From: Alphaproteobacteria bacterium
GTDB taxonomy: Bacteria > Pseudomonadota > Alphaproteobacteria > Rs-D84 > CACZYB01
Reading direction: 5' to 3'
Length of the DNA: 63,788 nucleotides
NCBI GenBank assembly: GCA_017938435.1
Contig: JAGBBO010000027.1
Coordinates: 66,264-130,051, forward strand
Shown here one piece after another: positions 7,623 through 16,056 of the stretch. Under the pieces are notes generated by a model that was given only the letters and a program-made list of their open reading frames with translations, searched no databases and was not told where the DNA came from. The position numbers and the translations under genes are program-made. Every line of letters starts with the position of its first letter. Position 1 is the first letter of the stretch.

Positions 7623-8093
7623 ATGAACAGAAAAAAGTTTAAACAAAAAATAAAAAAGATAATTTCATCATTGATTGTTTATTCATTGCTTTTTTTTGTT
7701 ACTGTTAGATTCTATGATTATTTTAAGAAATTAAAAAAGGATAATTTCTACACATTAACGGCTGATATAAAGCACACCGACGAATTAAAATCGGGTGCTT
7801 TTGTCCGTCTTTCTGGTGTTGATGTTGGTATAGTATCAAAACTTGAACTTTTACCAGATTTTTCTGTAAAGGTTTATATGCACATTGACAATGGAATACT
7901 TATTCCTGATGATAGTTCAGTTGCAATATACACTGATGGACTTATCGGACCAAAATATATCGCTATTCTTCCTGGTGGAAGTATTGATTATATGCAAAAT
8001 GGTGATGAATTCGAATTTGCTCAAGATTCTGTTAATATAACTGAAATGATTGAAATAGGAATTGAACAATTTAAAAAATCAAAGGATAAATAA
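7623..8093 (+). CDS. mlaD: MlaD-like MCE-domain lipid-transport protein
   Basis: 156 aa. One N-terminal membrane segment (about 13-28), then one MCE domain (about 40-125) with the family pattern LKSGAFVRLSGVDVGIV and GLIGPKYIAILPGG. MlaD hexamers form the periplasmic lipid-shuttling ring of the Mla ABC system, which keeps phospholipids out of the outer leaflet of the outer membrane. No mlaE, mlaF or mlaC is adjacent, so partners must be elsewhere. SD AGGAG lies directly on the stop codon of the preceding synthetase gene. Confidence 0.85.
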   Translation: MNRKKFKQKIKKIISSLIVYSLLFFVTVRFYDYFKKLKKDNFYTLTADIKHTDELKSGAFVRLSGVDVGIVSKLELLPDFSVKVYMHIDNGILIPDDSSVAIYTDGLIGPKYIAILPGGSIDYMQNGDEFEFAQDSVNITEMIEIGIEQFKKSKDK

Positions 8094-10180: not shown

Positions 10181-10708
10181 ATGTATGAAATTGGAAAAGA
10201 TATTCTTCCTGAATTAAACGCAAAAAAAGCAAAAGAAATCGCAAAAAAAGAAAAAATATCTAATAAAAAAGAAATCATTCTTAGTTCATTTATCGTTGCT
10301 GCTATTGTTGCTGGTCTAATAATAGGTTCAGATAAACAAAGTGATATTGAAATAATGAAACAAGCTGCTATTGAAATTGAACAAGAAGAAAAAAATAAAC
10401 TTCTTCAACAAGAATTACTAGCCGAAGCAAAACAATATAGAATCCAAGAAGAAGAAGACGATCGCATTGCTTTCTATATTCAAAATTCTGGGATTAAAAT
10501 GGATGGAAGTATTACAAAACCTGAATTTTTCAAATATTTTCTACACGGTTACACTGATATTGTCATTCGTGTAAAAGATGGCGACAAAACAAAATTAAAA
10601 AGTTATATCTCAAGAAAAATTGACCCAGAAAACAAACTTAAATTTGAAGCAGAAGTTTTAAGAATGAAAGAAAACGAAAAAATTCTTCAAAACCAAAATC
10701 AAAGATAA
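10181..10708 (+). CDS. Small membrane-anchored protein, unknown function
   Basis: 175 aa, not recognised. A Lys-rich N-terminus precedes one membrane segment at about 31-49 (IILSSFIVAAIVAGLIIG). A Glu/Gln-rich coiled coil follows (about 55-95), then a small globular C-terminal part with a pattern DIVIRVKDGDKTKLKSYIS. It is a single-gene unit with its own strong promoter, AGAGGGG ribosome-binding site and strong terminator, which suggests steady expression. Topology is probably N-in, with the coiled coil in the periplasm or cytoplasm undecided. Confidence 0.75.
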   Translation: MYEIGKDILPELNAKKAKEIAKKEKISNKKEIILSSFIVAAIVAGLIIGSDKQSDIEIMKQAAIEIEQEEKNKLLQQELLAEAKQYRIQEEEDDRIAFYIQNSGIKMDGSITKPEFFKYFLHGYTDIVIRVKDGDKTKLKSYISRKIDPENKLKFEAEVLRMKENEKILQNQNQR

Positions 10709-10720
10709 AAATTTTAACCT

Positions 10721-10759
10721 AAAAAAAGCCACATTTACCCTCCACTTGTGGCTTTTTTT
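10721..10759 (+). terminator. Strong intrinsic terminator
   Basis: AAAAAAAGCCACA (10721-10733) pairs with TGTGGCTTTTTTT (10747-10759). Closes the single-gene unit at 10181. Confidence 0.92.
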
Positions 10760-10797: not shown

Positions 10798-10826
10798 TTG
10801 ACAATCAATATTTAAAATGCTATTTT
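10798..10826 (+). promoter_or_regulatory. Promoter of the ExbB/OmpA-like four-gene operon
   Basis: -35 TTGACA (10798-10803), 17-base spacer, weaker -10 TATTTT (10821-10826), 31 bases before the first start codon. Confidence 0.6.
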
Positions 10827-10856: not shown

Positions 10857-12017
10857 ATGTTTAAAAAAAGACTTAAATCAGATATAAATCCAGAAGCCAT
10901 TTACATAAGGAAAACCGGACTTTTTTCTTGTATCATAAGAATGTTTTTATTCCTTTTATTCATTCTTTGTTTGCTTGGAATGTTATCTGGACAATTAAGG
11001 ATTATTTTTAATTCAAGTAAGATATTGAACACTTTTATTTTTGCAGTATTTATCTTCGGCACATTTTTAAACTTTAAAAATGTAGTAATTTTGATAAATG
11101 ATTCTACCTGGATAAATGAATTTTTTGCAGGTCGTGAAAAATTCTCCTCTGCTCCAAAAATAATATCACCTGTTGCCTTTCTATTAAAAGAACACAGAAA
11201 AGCATATCGCCCATACCTAGAGGCCGGCACTATGAGAACTCTACTTGATATAGTAGATGCCAGAATTCACGATTCAAAAGAATCTGCATCTTATTTTTCC
11301 GGAGTTTTGGTTTTCCTTGGACTTCTTGGAACATTCTGGGGACTTCTTTTAACAATAGGTTCATTCGGAGATATTGTGAAATCATTAAACATCCAAGACG
11401 GAAATATTATGGCTGTTTTTGAAACATTAAAAATGAATATTTCTCGTCCACTTTCCGGAATGGGAACAGCATTTTCCACATCATTGTTTGGTCTAGGTGC
11501 ATCACTTATTTTGGGTTTTTTACAATTACAATCAACAATCGCCGGACACTTTTTCTATAATGAATTAGAAGAAAATATGACCCGTTACACCCGCATTGTT
11601 TCATCAAGCCAACTTGCAGAAGGAGATGGTTCAATTATTACATATCTCCAAGCAATGCTTGAACAAACTGCTGATAACATAAACATTCTTCAAAAAACTG
11701 TTATGAAGTCTGTAGATACCAACGCCGATGTTGCAAAAAAAATGGCTCTTATGGCTGATGAAAGTTCAAAACTTGCGAAACAAATGCAAGAAAAGCTTAA
11801 GGTTATGGAAAAAATTTCCATTGCTCCTGAAAAACTTTACCCTGTATTAAATGATTTGGTAAAAATCTCGAAATCAGGATTCGGAATGGATGATAAAACT
11901 CGTGATCACATCAAAAATATGGATTTAGGTCTTGTTGATATGACAGAAAAAATATCATCAGATATTCGCTTACTTGCAAAAACAATTTCTATGACTAATG
12001 AAAAAAATAAAAAGTAA
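10857..12017 (+). CDS. MotA/TolQ/ExbB-family proton channel protein
   Basis: 386 aa. Four membrane segments are visible at about 22-43, 57-80, 147-168 and 200-223. The last two hold the family core: SGVLVFLGLLGTFWGLL and PLSGMGTAFSTSLFGL. The ~160-residue C-terminal tail is cytoplasmic and helical. Proteins of this type form the stator pentamer of ion-driven machines (MotA, ExbB, TolQ, ZorA). The partner is the OmpA/MotB-like gene at 12802, two genes downstream. From memory, similar ExbB/OmpA pairs are common in Alphaproteobacteria and have no assigned role. First gene of the operon; SD AGAGG. Confidence 0.85.
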   Translation: MFKKRLKSDINPEAIYIRKTGLFSCIIRMFLFLLFILCLLGMLSGQLRIIFNSSKILNTFIFAVFIFGTFLNFKNVVILINDSTWINEFFAGREKFSSAPKIISPVAFLLKEHRKAYRPYLEAGTMRTLLDIVDARIHDSKESASYFSGVLVFLGLLGTFWGLLLTIGSFGDIVKSLNIQDGNIMAVFETLKMNISRPLSGMGTAFSTSLFGLGASLILGFLQLQSTIAGHFFYNELEENMTRYTRIVSSSQLAEGDGSIITYLQAMLEQTADNINILQKTVMKSVDTNADVAKKMALMADESSKLAKQMQEKLKVMEKISIAPEKLYPVLNDLVKISKSGFGMDDKTRDHIKNMDLGLVDMTEKISSDIRLLAKTISMTNEKNKK

Positions 12018-12026
12018 GAGGTAGAA

Positions 12027-12404
12027 ATGAAAAAACATTACGATAAAATAGTTGCAATTACTGAAACTTTATCAATAAACAGTTATACCATCAGCATTGG
12101 ATTTTCAAGTGGTAAAAAATTTTTCCTCGGAGATTTTGCAGACGAGGAAGGCTTAATGTCTTTTCGCACATTTGAAAGAATATTATCAGAAACTCCATTA
12201 AACGATATTTATGAATTAAAAAACAAAATAAAATGTAGTAATGTTATCATAAACAATTTTATTGATAATGAACTTCGTCGTCGTCATAAACCATTAGTTA
12301 AAAAAGAAAAAACTTTAAAACAACAATTAAAAGGAAATGAAAAACAAATCATACTTCCAAACGGACAAACTTTGATTCGTGCTTCACAAATAAAGGAGAA
12401 ATAA
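12027..12404 (+). CDS. Small soluble protein inside the ExbB/OmpA operon, unknown
   Basis: 125 aa, not recognised. No signal peptide or membrane segment. The N-terminal half looks like a beta-rich domain (ITETLSINSYTISIGFSSGK) and the C-terminus is strongly basic. SD AGAGGT, 9 bases after the channel gene, and one base before the next gene. Its place between channel and stator genes implies a cytoplasmic accessory role for the complex. Confidence 0.75.
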   Translation: MKKHYDKIVAITETLSINSYTISIGFSSGKKFFLGDFADEEGLMSFRTFERILSETPLNDIYELKNKIKCSNVIINNFIDNELRRRHKPLVKKEKTLKQQLKGNEKQIILPNGQTLIRASQIKEK

Positions 12405-12405
12405 T

Positions 12406-12792
12406 ATGACATATTATAAAATATTAAGTGTTTCTGGCGGAAAAATTGAAATTCAAAAAAACACAAAAAATCCAATATATGAAGCTGAATTTGACAGACT
12501 TGATAATATGGGATGTTTTTCTATTGATGAAATTTGCAAAAAACTTGATGATATGGGTATTGCTTCTGAAAATTCATCTATTGAATATGCTTCACTTCCA
12601 TCAATTACATTTAAAAAATTATTTTATATAATGGGTGGTATGGAAACAAAAGATTTGATTCTTCTTTCCGGAAAAATTATTCAAAACGATATTGTAACAA
12701 CACTAATCGATACAATAATTTCTTCACGAAATAAAGGTATAGGTAGTCCAAATTTAAGTACTAACTGGTTATACAATATAAAAACAAAATAG
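12406..12792 (+). CDS. Second small soluble protein inside the ExbB/OmpA operon, unknown
   Basis: 128 aa, not recognised. No membrane segment. It begins with a short beta-like stretch (YYKILSVSGGKIEIQ) and continues with helical segments. It has a good SD (AAAGGAG) and starts one base after the preceding stop; the next gene starts 9 bases after its end. Tight packing makes co-expression with the channel nearly certain. Confidence 0.75.
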   Translation: MTYYKILSVSGGKIEIQKNTKNPIYEAEFDRLDNMGCFSIDEICKKLDDMGIASENSSIEYASLPSITFKKLFYIMGGMETKDLILLSGKIIQNDIVTTLIDTIISSRNKGIGSPNLSTNWLYNIKTK

Positions 12793-12801
12793 GATAAAAC
12801 T

Positions 12802-13866
12802 ATGTCAAAACATTATTCTGAAAATCAAACATCTTTGTGGCCATCATTTGTTGATGTGATGAGTAATCTTTTGATTCTTATGCTATTTGTTGTTGTTATT
12901 TTTATGCTTATGAATTTTGTATCAAGTGTAAATTCTCGTAATTCAAAAGATGATCGTATCACTGAACTTGAAAAAATAATTGCTGAAAAAGATAAAATAA
13001 ACAAAGCTCTTATAAATAATGTCCGCGGGGTAAAAGAAGATTTAGAAAAAGCACAAAAAGAAACAGATCTTGCTAAATCTGATATGGAAGAACTCTATTC
13101 CGTCCTTGATATGACTAAAACTGATGCAAAAAAAGAAGAAGTCAAAAACGAACAACTTTCAAACAAGGTTGCTGAACTAAATATGTTTATTTTACAACTC
13201 GAAGGTGACATTATCAAAAAAGATAACGAAGTAAAACGCCTTCAAAATAACGAAGATAATCTTAAAAACACTGTTTCAAAATTAACCGGAGAAATGCAAA
13301 AATTAAACGATGTTTTCGAAGCAACAAATAAATATATTTCATGGCAAAAAGTTCAAATAGTCGAACTTGGAAAAAAACTAAATCGTGCCCTTGCAAATAA
13401 AACTGCTGAACTTTTCAAGGTCCGTTCTACATTTTTTGAAGAACTTTCAACTGCCGTTATGGGAAACAAAAATTTTGTAATGGTTGGCGACAGGTTTGTT
13501 ATTCCATCCGAAGTTTTTTTCACTGCTGAATCTGCTGACATAGGTAAAGAAGGTAAAGAAAAATTAAAGGAACTTGCCTCTATTTTAAAAGATGCAATGA
13601 AAGCATTTCCTGATGACATAGATTGGATTTTACGCGTCGATGGACACACTGATAAAAACCCAATCAAAGGAACAAAATTCAAATCCAACTGGGAACTTTC
13701 TGTTGCCCGTGCCGTTTCCGTTGTAAACTTTTTAATATCCGAAGGAATTCCAGCAAACAGACTTGCCGCAACAGGATTTGGTGAATTTCATCCACTAGTC
13801 GAAGGCTCTGACAAAGCATCGCTTAAGAAAAATCGTCGTATAGAATTCAAACTTACGGAAAAATAA
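12802..13866 (+). CDS. OmpA/MotB-like peptidoglycan-binding stator protein
   Basis: 354 aa. The N-terminus is SLWPSFVDVMSNLL followed by one membrane helix (about 22-40); D18 sits where the ion-carrying Asp of MotB/ExbD/ZorB lies. Residues ~50-210 form a long charged coiled coil. The C-terminal ~110 residues are an OmpA domain with the diaminopimelate-binding pattern (GHTDKNPI, NWELSVARA, KNRRIEF). It should anchor the channel encoded at 10857 to the cell wall, forming an ion-driven or force-sensing complex. Ends the four-gene operon, converging on the minus-strand gene at 13869. Confidence 0.87.
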   Translation: MSKHYSENQTSLWPSFVDVMSNLLILMLFVVVIFMLMNFVSSVNSRNSKDDRITELEKIIAEKDKINKALINNVRGVKEDLEKAQKETDLAKSDMEELYSVLDMTKTDAKKEEVKNEQLSNKVAELNMFILQLEGDIIKKDNEVKRLQNNEDNLKNTVSKLTGEMQKLNDVFEATNKYISWQKVQIVELGKKLNRALANKTAELFKVRSTFFEELSTAVMGNKNFVMVGDRFVIPSEVFFTAESADIGKEGKEKLKELASILKDAMKAFPDDIDWILRVDGHTDKNPIKGTKFKSNWELSVARAVSVVNFLISEGIPANRLAATGFGEFHPLVEGSDKASLKKNRRIEFKLTEK

Positions 13867-13868
13867 AC

Positions 13869-14618
13869 CTAAAATTTTTGAAGTAAAAGTTGTAAATCGC
13901 CCCATGCCCTTTTCTTTGCTTCTTTATTGTTCAAAAGGTATGACAAAGAAAATGTTGTCATCAAAGGAATTTCATTATATTCAAGCCATTTACCACGCAA
14001 CAAAGTTATTGCATCATTTTTTCCAAACAACGCATTCACTGGCAAACTTCCCATACATAAAATAACCTTTGGTTTTAAAATTTCAATAAACTTTTTAATA
14101 AATGGAATAGATATTTCCATTTCCTCAAAAGTAGGAAGTCTTCCCCCTGGTGCCCTATATGGACTTGCTGGAAAAGTATAAGTATCCGTTTCAACCGAAG
14201 ATTTAATCGCCACTAAAATTTTTTTAAACATATCACCCGTTGGACCAGATAGCATAACTCCACTTCTATCTTCATCAGTATTTGGTGTTTCCGTAATAAC
14301 CAAAAGTTTTGGATTTTCCACTCCGACACCACTAATAACATTACTCGCAAATTTCAAAAGTGGATTAAGTTTAAATTCTGAAATAACCTTCTTTAGCCCA
14401 GCCAAATCAGAAACAGAATTAACCAATTTTTCTGCCTCTTGTTTTGCTTTTAATATAGAAATATTTACATCAGATTTTTTATCCTCAACAATAACTTTAT
14501 TTGCAAAAATATTGGCACCACCTGAAAAAAATTCATACGGCTTATCAGTATAAGACTCATCAACACCGGAATCTTCATACAATTTCAAAATATCAATGTC
14601 ATCTTTACTTATTTGCAT
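13869..14618 (-). CDS. Degenerate family-4-like uracil-DNA glycosylase
   Basis: 249 aa. The C-terminal ~165 residues follow the uracil-DNA glycosylase superfamily order (KLLVITETPNTDEDRSG, YRAPGGRLPTFEE, PFIKKFIEILKPKVIL, TFSLSYLLNN). Family 4/5 enzymes bind a 4Fe-4S cluster through four cysteines; this protein has only one cysteine (in ILCMGS). The usual GEAPG motif reads TETPN and the HPSxL catalytic-loop motif reads SLSYL, so the His is missing. It may be inactive, or act without a cluster. It overlaps the 3' end of cpoB by 14 bases, so the two are co-translated. Confidence 0.7.
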   Translation of the reverse strand: MQISKDDIDILKLYEDSGVDESYTDKPYEFFSGGANIFANKVIVEDKKSDVNISILKAKQEAEKLVNSVSDLAGLKKVISEFKLNPLLKFASNVISGVGVENPKLLVITETPNTDEDRSGVMLSGPTGDMFKKILVAIKSSVETDTYTFPASPYRAPGGRLPTFEEMEISIPFIKKFIEILKPKVILCMGSLPVNALFGKNDAITLLRGKWLEYNEIPLMTTFSLSYLLNNKEAKKRAWGDLQLLLQKF

Positions 14619-15396
14619 TATTTTCTTTTACTTCTATTGTTTTATCTTTTTCAGGATTGCATTTCAATAAATCAAATTCTTTCACAGCCATATCTTTAAT
14701 TTCTTTTTCAATATTTTCACTTGAATTTACAATTTTTGCAAACGCAGTGCATGCTCCATTTTTATTTTCTAAATTTTTCATAGAAAACCCAAGATACAAA
14801 AGGTTTTTATGAAAATTTTTACCATCAGGAAAATTTTTAATATTAGCCGCAAAATTGATAGCAGATTCGGTAAAATCTTTTTTATCAAAATTTTCCATTG
14901 CCAACTTAAAACTTTCATCATCAGAAATTTTCATTGGTTTTTCATCACTCTTTGCACTTCCAACAAGTAATAAATCTGTTGGATTTTTTGTTGCCTTTTC
15001 CTCCATAACTGGTTCTTTTTTCTCTTCAACTTTTTGCCTTTCTAAAACAGAAATTTTTTCCTGTAACATTGCAACAATATTTTTAAGATTTTCAATTTCT
15101 ATTTTACTAGCATAAACATCTTTTGAAAACTTTTCTTGCTCATCCTTTACTTCTTGAATTTGAAGTTTTATATCTTTTAAAACAACACCTTGTTCAGCTT
15201 TGGCTTGCTTTTGATTATAAGCATTTTCCTCACTTTGTGAAGTAAGTGAAGTAATTGCATTTTCAATTCTTTCCAAACTTAAATTTATATTTTCCAACGC
15301 TTCAACATTATTAACTTGTCTAACTACTCTTTGAGCAAAGACATTTGAAGAAAAACAAAAAATAAAACAAATAAATAACTTAATCATTTTTTTCAT
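14605..15396 (-). CDS. cpoB: CpoB/YbgF-like Tol-Pal-associated coiled-coil/TPR protein
   Basis: 263 aa periplasmic protein. The signal peptide ends near SSNVFAQ, then a coiled coil (about 30-110) that trimerises the family, then TPR-like repeats near the C-terminus (DDESFKLAMENFDKKDF...). CpoB coordinates outer-membrane constriction (Tol-Pal) with PBP1B in division. A longer in-frame start exists at 15435, but AAAGAGGGGTG before the ATG at 15396 and the signal peptide favour 15396. It lies downstream of pal, the normal order, though a terminator separates them and tolQRAB are absent here. Confidence 0.8.
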   Translation of the reverse strand: MKKMIKLFICFIFCFSSNVFAQRVVRQVNNVEALENINLSLERIENAITSLTSQSEENAYNQKQAKAEQGVVLKDIKLQIQEVKDEQEKFSKDVYASKIEIENLKNIVAMLQEKISVLERQKVEEKKEPVMEEKATKNPTDLLLVGSAKSDEKPMKISDDESFKLAMENFDKKDFTESAINFAANIKNFPDGKNFHKNLLYLGFSMKNLENKNGACTAFAKIVNSSENIEKEIKDMAVKEFDLLKCNPEKDKTIEVKENNANK

Positions 15397-15452
15397 TTCA
15401 CACCCCTCTTTTTTAACATACATATAGTAAAACAAAAAAACTATAAAGGCAA

Positions 15453-15483
15453 CAAAAAACCTCCCATAAAAACAGGGAGGCTT
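15453..15483 (-). terminator. Intrinsic terminator after pal
   Basis: In plus coordinates CCTCCC (15460-15465) pairs with GGGAGG (15475-15480); the minus-strand transcript ends in a U run from 15459 down to 15454. Confidence 0.88.
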
Positions 15484-15504
15484 TCTAATTCCAAAGTAAT
15501 GTAA

Positions 15505-16002
15505 TTATTTTGCAATAATTGTTACATCACGACGGTTTTTTGCATAAGCTTCTTCTGTGTTACCAAGAACAGCTGGCTTATCTTTACCGTATGAAACTGT
15601 TGTAATACGTTTTGCAGAAATACCTTGAGCAATCAAGTATCTTTTTGCTGCATTAGCACGTTTTTCACCAAGAGCTTGGTTATATTTTCTTGTACCACGT
15701 TCATCACAGTTACCTTCAATGATGATGTTTACTTTTGGATACATTTTCAACCATGCAGCTTGTTTTTTCAAAGTTTTTGTAGCTTCTGCTGACAATGATG
15801 ATTTATCATATGCAAAATATACAGCATTTCCAGCACGTGCATTCAAATCTTCTTGTGAACCAGCTACAACGCCTTTTATTTCTGAAGAAATAGAAACTTC
15901 TGAACCATCATCAACAAATTCTGATTCTGGAGCTTCGTTTGAGCAAGCAGCCAAAGCAGCAACTAATGCTACAGATGCTAATGTTTTTAATGTATTTTTC
16001 AT
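15505..16002 (-). CDS. pal: Peptidoglycan-associated lipoprotein Pal
   Basis: 165 aa outer-membrane lipoprotein of the Tol-Pal system. The lipoprotein signal has the lipobox LAAC with Cys at residue 21. The OmpA-type domain contains EGNCDERGT and LGEKRANAAK, typical of Pal. Two in-frame upstream starts exist (16038 and 16008); AAAGGA is correctly spaced only for the ATG at 16002, which also gives the cleanest signal peptide. Followed by a terminator and then cpoB. Confidence 0.93.
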   Translation of the reverse strand: MKNTLKTLASVALVAALAACSNEAPESEFVDDGSEVSISSEIKGVVAGSQEDLNARAGNAVYFAYDKSSLSAEATKTLKKQAAWLKMYPKVNIIIEGNCDERGTRKYNQALGEKRANAAKRYLIAQGISAKRITTVSYGKDKPAVLGNTEEAYAKNRRDVTIIAK

Positions 16003-16056
16003 TTTCATATCCTTTCGTTTGTTTATGAACCCCTTCATTATCCCACATTAAATGAC

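Follow-up and report, generated by a model that had tools for sequence, protein, structure and literature searches.

The locus lies within a window of 63,788 nucleotides, the whole stretch of DNA that was analysed, whose assignment to the Alphaproteobacteria rests on its named homologues, and comprises four open reading frames, all on the + strand and separated by intergenic gaps of 9, 1, and 9 nt, which confirms the tightly packed four-gene unit described in an earlier, sequence-only reading. P1 (10857-12017, 386 aa) encodes the A subunit, an ion channel of the MotA/ExbB/TolQ/ZorA type with four transmembrane (TM) helices and a helical cytoplasmic C-terminal tail, and P4 (12802-13866, 354 aa) encodes a B subunit of the PRK09039 type, with a single TM helix carrying Asp18, a long coiled coil, and a C-terminal OmpA/MotB peptidoglycan-binding domain. 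Between them lie P2 (12027-12404, 125 aa), which is small and basic, and P3 (12406-12792, 128 aa), which is small and neutral to acidic; both are predicted to be cytosolic, and they share a domain located at approximately residues 43-90 of P2 and 66-112 of P3.

Upstream of P1, an intrinsic-terminator-like hairpin (10722-10758, given without strand), consisting of an A-tract, a stem, a 13-nt loop, and a U-tract, closes the preceding gene at 10181-10708. Its folding energy of -13.7 kcal/mol (z -5.3) was reached by none of 200 shuffles in RNA folding, and a terminator scanner with a loop limit of 8 nt left it unlisted because of its longer loop. A candidate operon promoter (10798-10826, + strand; TTGACA-17-TATTTT, with a TG before the -10 box in an extended -10-like arrangement) was found by pattern matching between this hairpin and the P1 ATG, 30 nt 5' of the latter. 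As the promoter that the unit had been credited with, this candidate is plausible by its position only; such patterns are no more frequent than in shuffled sequence (22 observed versus 20.9). The product of the gene closed by the hairpin, 175 aa long, combines a single hydrophobic segment with a charged helical region; neither a convincing Pfam family nor a counterpart in the relatives' loci examined was found for it. Convergent with the operon, the interval 13869-16038 contains a uracil-DNA glycosylase (UDG) superfamily gene, a gene for a CpoB/YbgF-like coiled-coil protein, and pal. The tolQR genes are located on another contig (C37), and in three of the six genomes of the genus, the operon has some of the Tol-Pal genes as neighbours. 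Additionally, a 156-aa MlaD-domain protein (7623-8093; Pfam E 1e-15), a single small MCE protein, is encoded between glycyl-tRNA synthetase-like and YbeY-like genes.

P1 matches the Pfam family MotA_ExbB at E 1e-3, below the cut-off, and its best family match is the ZorA1 model of PADLOC (E 9e-13). Since its profile was uninformative against PDB sequences, yielding coiled-coil matches only, a fold search was used instead. The AlphaFold2 model, built with 41 named homologues, has a pLDDT of 80, with a well-supported four-helix core whose long helices span residues 12-42, 55-90, 123-176, and 184-244, and a less certain helical C-terminal tail of approximately 140 aa. When this model was compared with the PDB by Foldseek, the first 38 matches (E about 0.01-0.1) were all ZorA, ExbB, or TolQ chains, the top ones having a probability of 1.00 but an E-value of only about 0.01; TM-scores were about 0.4-0.6 depending on the target, and PomA/MotA were matched more weakly; the four-helix channel of the MotA/TolQ/ExbB type that had been read from the sequence is thereby upheld. 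The motifs GLLGTFWGL and PL.GMG.AFS.S..GL are conserved among homologues, as are T159, S207, and S209 (at least 97%), which are channel-lining Thr/Ser residues in proteins of this family. The P1 homologues examined from a large family (f5; L052-L067) lack the C-terminal tail of about 100 residues, beyond approximately residue 286, that is present elsewhere, and the tail is therefore dispensable in that lineage.

The N-terminus of P4 (MSKHYSENQTSLWPSFVD18) places an Asp at residue 18 that is conserved in 100% of 66 named homologues, within a WPxxVD motif (W13-P14-V17-D18) conserved at 97-100% in the same set. P4 matches NCBIfam PRK09039.1-2 with an E-value of 8e-83 and 279 bits, just under the curated cut-off of 305, and its OmpA domain (Pfam PF00691, E 2e-16) is preceded by the long coiled coil. 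Among PDB sequences, the C-terminal domains of MotS, MotB, and PomB were matched (best E 2e-13); ZorB models in PADLOC were matched as well, and no ExbD match was found in Pfam. The earlier description of P4 as an OmpA/MotB-like protein with a membrane Asp, a long coiled coil, and a peptidoglycan-binding domain holds in every part.

Both subunits are widely distributed. Within the order, 140 of 142 genomes gave a match to P4, a few of them yielding nothing but weaker matches that probably belong to other OmpA proteins; in a class-wide sample of 385 genomes, 249 contained a homologue of P1. Of 77 named loci with a P4 match downstream, 74 have the two genes next to each other, less than 150 nt apart; in Sinorhizobium meliloti, the pair is annotated side by side (LZK74_31000/30995). 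These counts agree with the statement that alphaproteobacteria carry an ExbB/OmpA pair with no assigned role, and the literature search turned up no paper on what the PRK09039 pair does. In the locus studied here, the A-subunit gene also stands upstream of the PRK09039-type gene on the same strand, but two genes intervene. Because the homology of both subunits is clear, the locus is read as a variant of the alphaproteobacterial pair, for which adjacency is usual rather than defining. In the 1.1-Mb genome, the MotA_ExbB and ExbD families each pass their cut-off once, side by side, as TolQR, and the MotB plug (PF13677) has no match; besides TolQR, P1/P4 is the only such motor found there. The pair is a core, widely annotated but functionally uncharacterised alphaproteobacterial module, so that calling it an undescribed system was too strong, and for P2 and P3 that label is unproven.

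P2 and P3 had been regarded as two unrecognised soluble proteins. Neither has a match in Pfam, NCBIfam, PADLOC, or PHROGs, and comparison with PDB sequences gave chance-level matches only. Both lack a TM helix and a signal-like N-terminus; P2 carries a charge of +6 to +9 and a conserved C-terminal tail resembling LI[RK]AS[QND][IL]..EK, and a single-sequence structure model of P3 gave no usable fold (pLDDT 40). A phage or defence origin was considered for the two proteins and rejected, as PHROGs and PADLOC gave no matches and no viral-contig relatives of P3 were found. That both are coding follows from their orthologues in five other genomes and from dN/dS values below 1. The earlier description fails in treating them as separate: the P2 and P3 profiles align with an hhalign E-value of 7e-5 over 49 columns, several members score above all 500 shuffles in HMM cross-matches, and the common domain, of about 45 aa, is C-terminal in both. 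A model of this domain finds exactly two copies per genome of the genus and nothing else convincing in the genomes of the family. Because the common domain is found nowhere else in these genomes, P2 and P3 look, from their sequences, like paralogues produced by tandem duplication of one gene.

Each of the six genomes of the genus (g1) has P2 and P3 between P1 and P4. In the operons examined from the sister genera g2 and g3, from other families of the order, and from named alphaproteobacteria, P1 and P4 adjoin without an insert, and the P2 and P3 profiles, run against the 385 class genomes, matched only the window at convincing E-values. Three matches to the P3 profile near E 0.004 in these 385 genomes were set aside as chance, being short and partial, one of them in a frame with stops. 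A further sister genus, g4, represented by one genome (G024), carries two small genes of 131 and 214 aa in the P1-P4 gap (L043:5110-6160). The first shows a weak match to the shared domain, equalled in none (0) of 60 shuffles in one test and in 8 of 500 in another; comparing P2 and P3 with the G024 genes by whole profiles gave no significant match, and the shared-domain profile was suggestive for the first gene only. On these comparisons, the G024 genes are possibly homologous to P2 and P3. Protein trees, in which some forks are weak, group g1 with g4 and apart from g2 and g3, which makes one gain before the g1/g4 split the simplest account. The locus very probably records a lineage-specific insertion of paralogues, and the inserted proteins are, as had been claimed, its new part. 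The sequence-only reading had accepted that absence of the small genes from related operons would speak against it. Outside one genus they are indeed absent, and P2 and P3 are therefore not general subunits of the machine, yet all six genomes of that genus keep them and the sister genus has possibly related genes.

The inserted genes evolve far faster than their neighbours. Between the window and G022, identity is 95% for P1 and 93% for P4 versus 49% for P2 and 42% for P3. Across the pairs tested, in some of which synonymous sites are near saturation, dN/dS ranges over 0.28-0.66 for P2 and 0.24-0.71 for P3, and over 0.03-0.12 for P1 and P4; in the closest pair (G003/G008), it is 0.35 and 0.24 for P2 and P3 versus 0.07 and 0.04 for P1 and P4. 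Over whole genes, P2 and P3 show no sign of dN/dS above 1. These rates show that both are real, selected proteins, weakly constrained and fast-evolving, yet intact. Three genomes of the genus have the four-gene block next to udg-cpoB-pal; in the other three, topA adjoins the block, as it also follows it in the sister-genus genome G024; two such different neighbourhoods indicate that the block moved as a unit. In G003, the adjoining topA (L041:2106-4668) is split into two overlapping frames, reflecting a frameshift or an assembly error.

From what is known of MotAB, TolQR, and ZorAB (PMC9389320, PMC11890865), P1 and P4 are expected to form an ion-driven, wall-anchored motor, and they almost certainly constitute a wall-anchored stator pair of the 5:2 class. 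By analogy, P1 would probably form a pentamer around a P4 dimer in a non-flagellar, peptidoglycan-anchored complex, in which ions would pass Asp18 of P4 and a Thr/Ser ring of P1 TM3/TM4, and this flow would turn P1 against the wall-fixed P4. Such a motor may serve envelope upkeep, a maintenance role that we infer for the pair. The small genes would have entered between the subunit genes in the ancestor of the genus, probably also that of its sister genus, and duplication of one of them would have given P2 and P3. Made in the cytosol, these proteins could work there on the helical tail of P1 as adaptors or regulators peculiar to the lineage, or could couple that tail to a target, and their fast change would reflect weak or shifting constraint on the surface.

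That P2 and P3 act on the motor, presumably through contact with P1, is a tentative reading, held at slightly under an even chance. Nearly all relatives lack them while conserving the motor equally well, so that the motor can do without them; the proposed docking site, the P1 tail, is missing in f5 members, which counts against an adaptor, and neither P1 nor P4 was found to carry a co-evolving change peculiar to genomes with P2 and P3. A stronger version, in which the two are true motor subunits, a duplicated, fast-evolving cytoplasmic pair docked on the P1 tail that would give the old motor a new lineage-specific output and so represent a novel type of rotor or adaptor in the 5:2 class, is unlikely. 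Action on the motor is only slightly preferred over the possibility that P2 and P3 are orphan genes restricted to the lineage, either young or decaying fast, that ride a well-expressed operon and have a job unrelated to the motor. Their confinement to one genus, perhaps plus a sister genus, the weak constraint (dN/dS up to 0.71), and the equally conserved motors that do without them all suit such passengers, which keeps this account a serious contender, if doubtful on balance. It sits less easily with their being intact and in order in all six streamlined genomes of 0.8-1.1 Mb, with their having accompanied the motor genes as the block relocated, with the tight packing at gaps of 1-9 nt, and with persistent purifying selection.

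The same spacing of 1-9 nt between the subunit genes, together with two predicted cytosolic products, a basic P2 and a neutral to acidic P3 that could pair, would also suit a part in expression or assembly, through translational coupling or a chaperone-like holding of P1 or P4 before membrane insertion rather than in running the motor. Neither family nor fold matches favour this account, and the pair persists in hundreds of relatives that lack P2 and P3; such a part is improbable. A Zorya-like anti-phage system, in which P1/P4 would be a ZorAB motor sensing envelope damage and P2 and P3 variable effectors shaped by an arms race, is less probable by far. ZorA is both the best family match and the top fold match of P1, P4 matches ZorB models, and a conserved motor with fast-evolving partners recalls the modularity of Zorya (PMC11890865). 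Yet nearly every genome of the order has the pair, which is also core in the class and persists in reduced genomes; the operon contains no ZorC, ZorD, or ZorE; P2 and P3 match no defence or phage family in PADLOC or PHROGs, and viral contigs yielded no relative of P1 or P3; the P1 tail is short or absent where ZorA has a rod of several hundred residues; and dN/dS of P2 and P3 does not exceed 1.

P1/P4 emerges as a very widespread ion-driven motor for which no assigned job was found, kept even in alphaproteobacteria with genomes of 0.7-1.1 Mb. According to a survey of non-flagellar relatives, the B subunit of these systems has no OmpA-type domain (PMC12505986); P1/P4, like Zorya, joins an ExbB/ZorA-like channel to an OmpA-type anchor and is a counter-example. 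What is new is the presence of two related, fast-changing genes inside an old two-gene motor operon in one small lineage, where they could be lineage-specific attachments. If P2 and P3 bind the motor, this lineage represents a natural experiment in adding a cytoplasmic partner to such a machine.

Among known systems, P1/P4 does not fit Zorya, flagellar MotAB, or TolQR. ZorAB resembles it in an A subunit of four TM helices with a cytoplasmic helical tail and in a B subunit with a TM Asp and an OmpA-type wall-binding domain. Zorya differs in its ZorC/D/E partners and in its long ZorA tail, the rod of type I ZorA spanning, for example, residues 237-696 (PMC11890865) versus approximately 140 aa in P1, whereas the pair studied here has a core distribution and an extra periplasmic coiled coil in P4. 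As for Zorya effectors, P2 and P3 have no PADLOC match, and the flanking genes checked with Pfam encode UDG, a coiled-coil/TPR-like protein, Pal, and an MlaD protein. TolQR and ExbBD share with P1 the channel fold and the GLLGT.WG motif of the A subunit, but their B subunit has an ExbD/TolR domain in place of the OmpA/MotB domain of P4, and the genome has a separate TolQR, the only locus at which the ExbD family occurs. Flagellar MotAB and PomAB share with P4 an OmpA-type peptidoglycan-binding B subunit with a TM Asp; they differ in the MotB plug, which has no PF13677 match in this genome, and the fold of P1 is nearer to ZorA, ExbB, and TolQ. The locus belongs with the alphaproteobacterial pair of a "MotA/TolQ/ExbB proton channel family protein" and a PRK09039 "peptidoglycan-binding protein", with which it shares the same two proteins in the same order, the invariant WPG.VD motif, and the OmpA domain, and from which, as in Sinorhizobium meliloti, it differs by the two extra genes present in this genus only.
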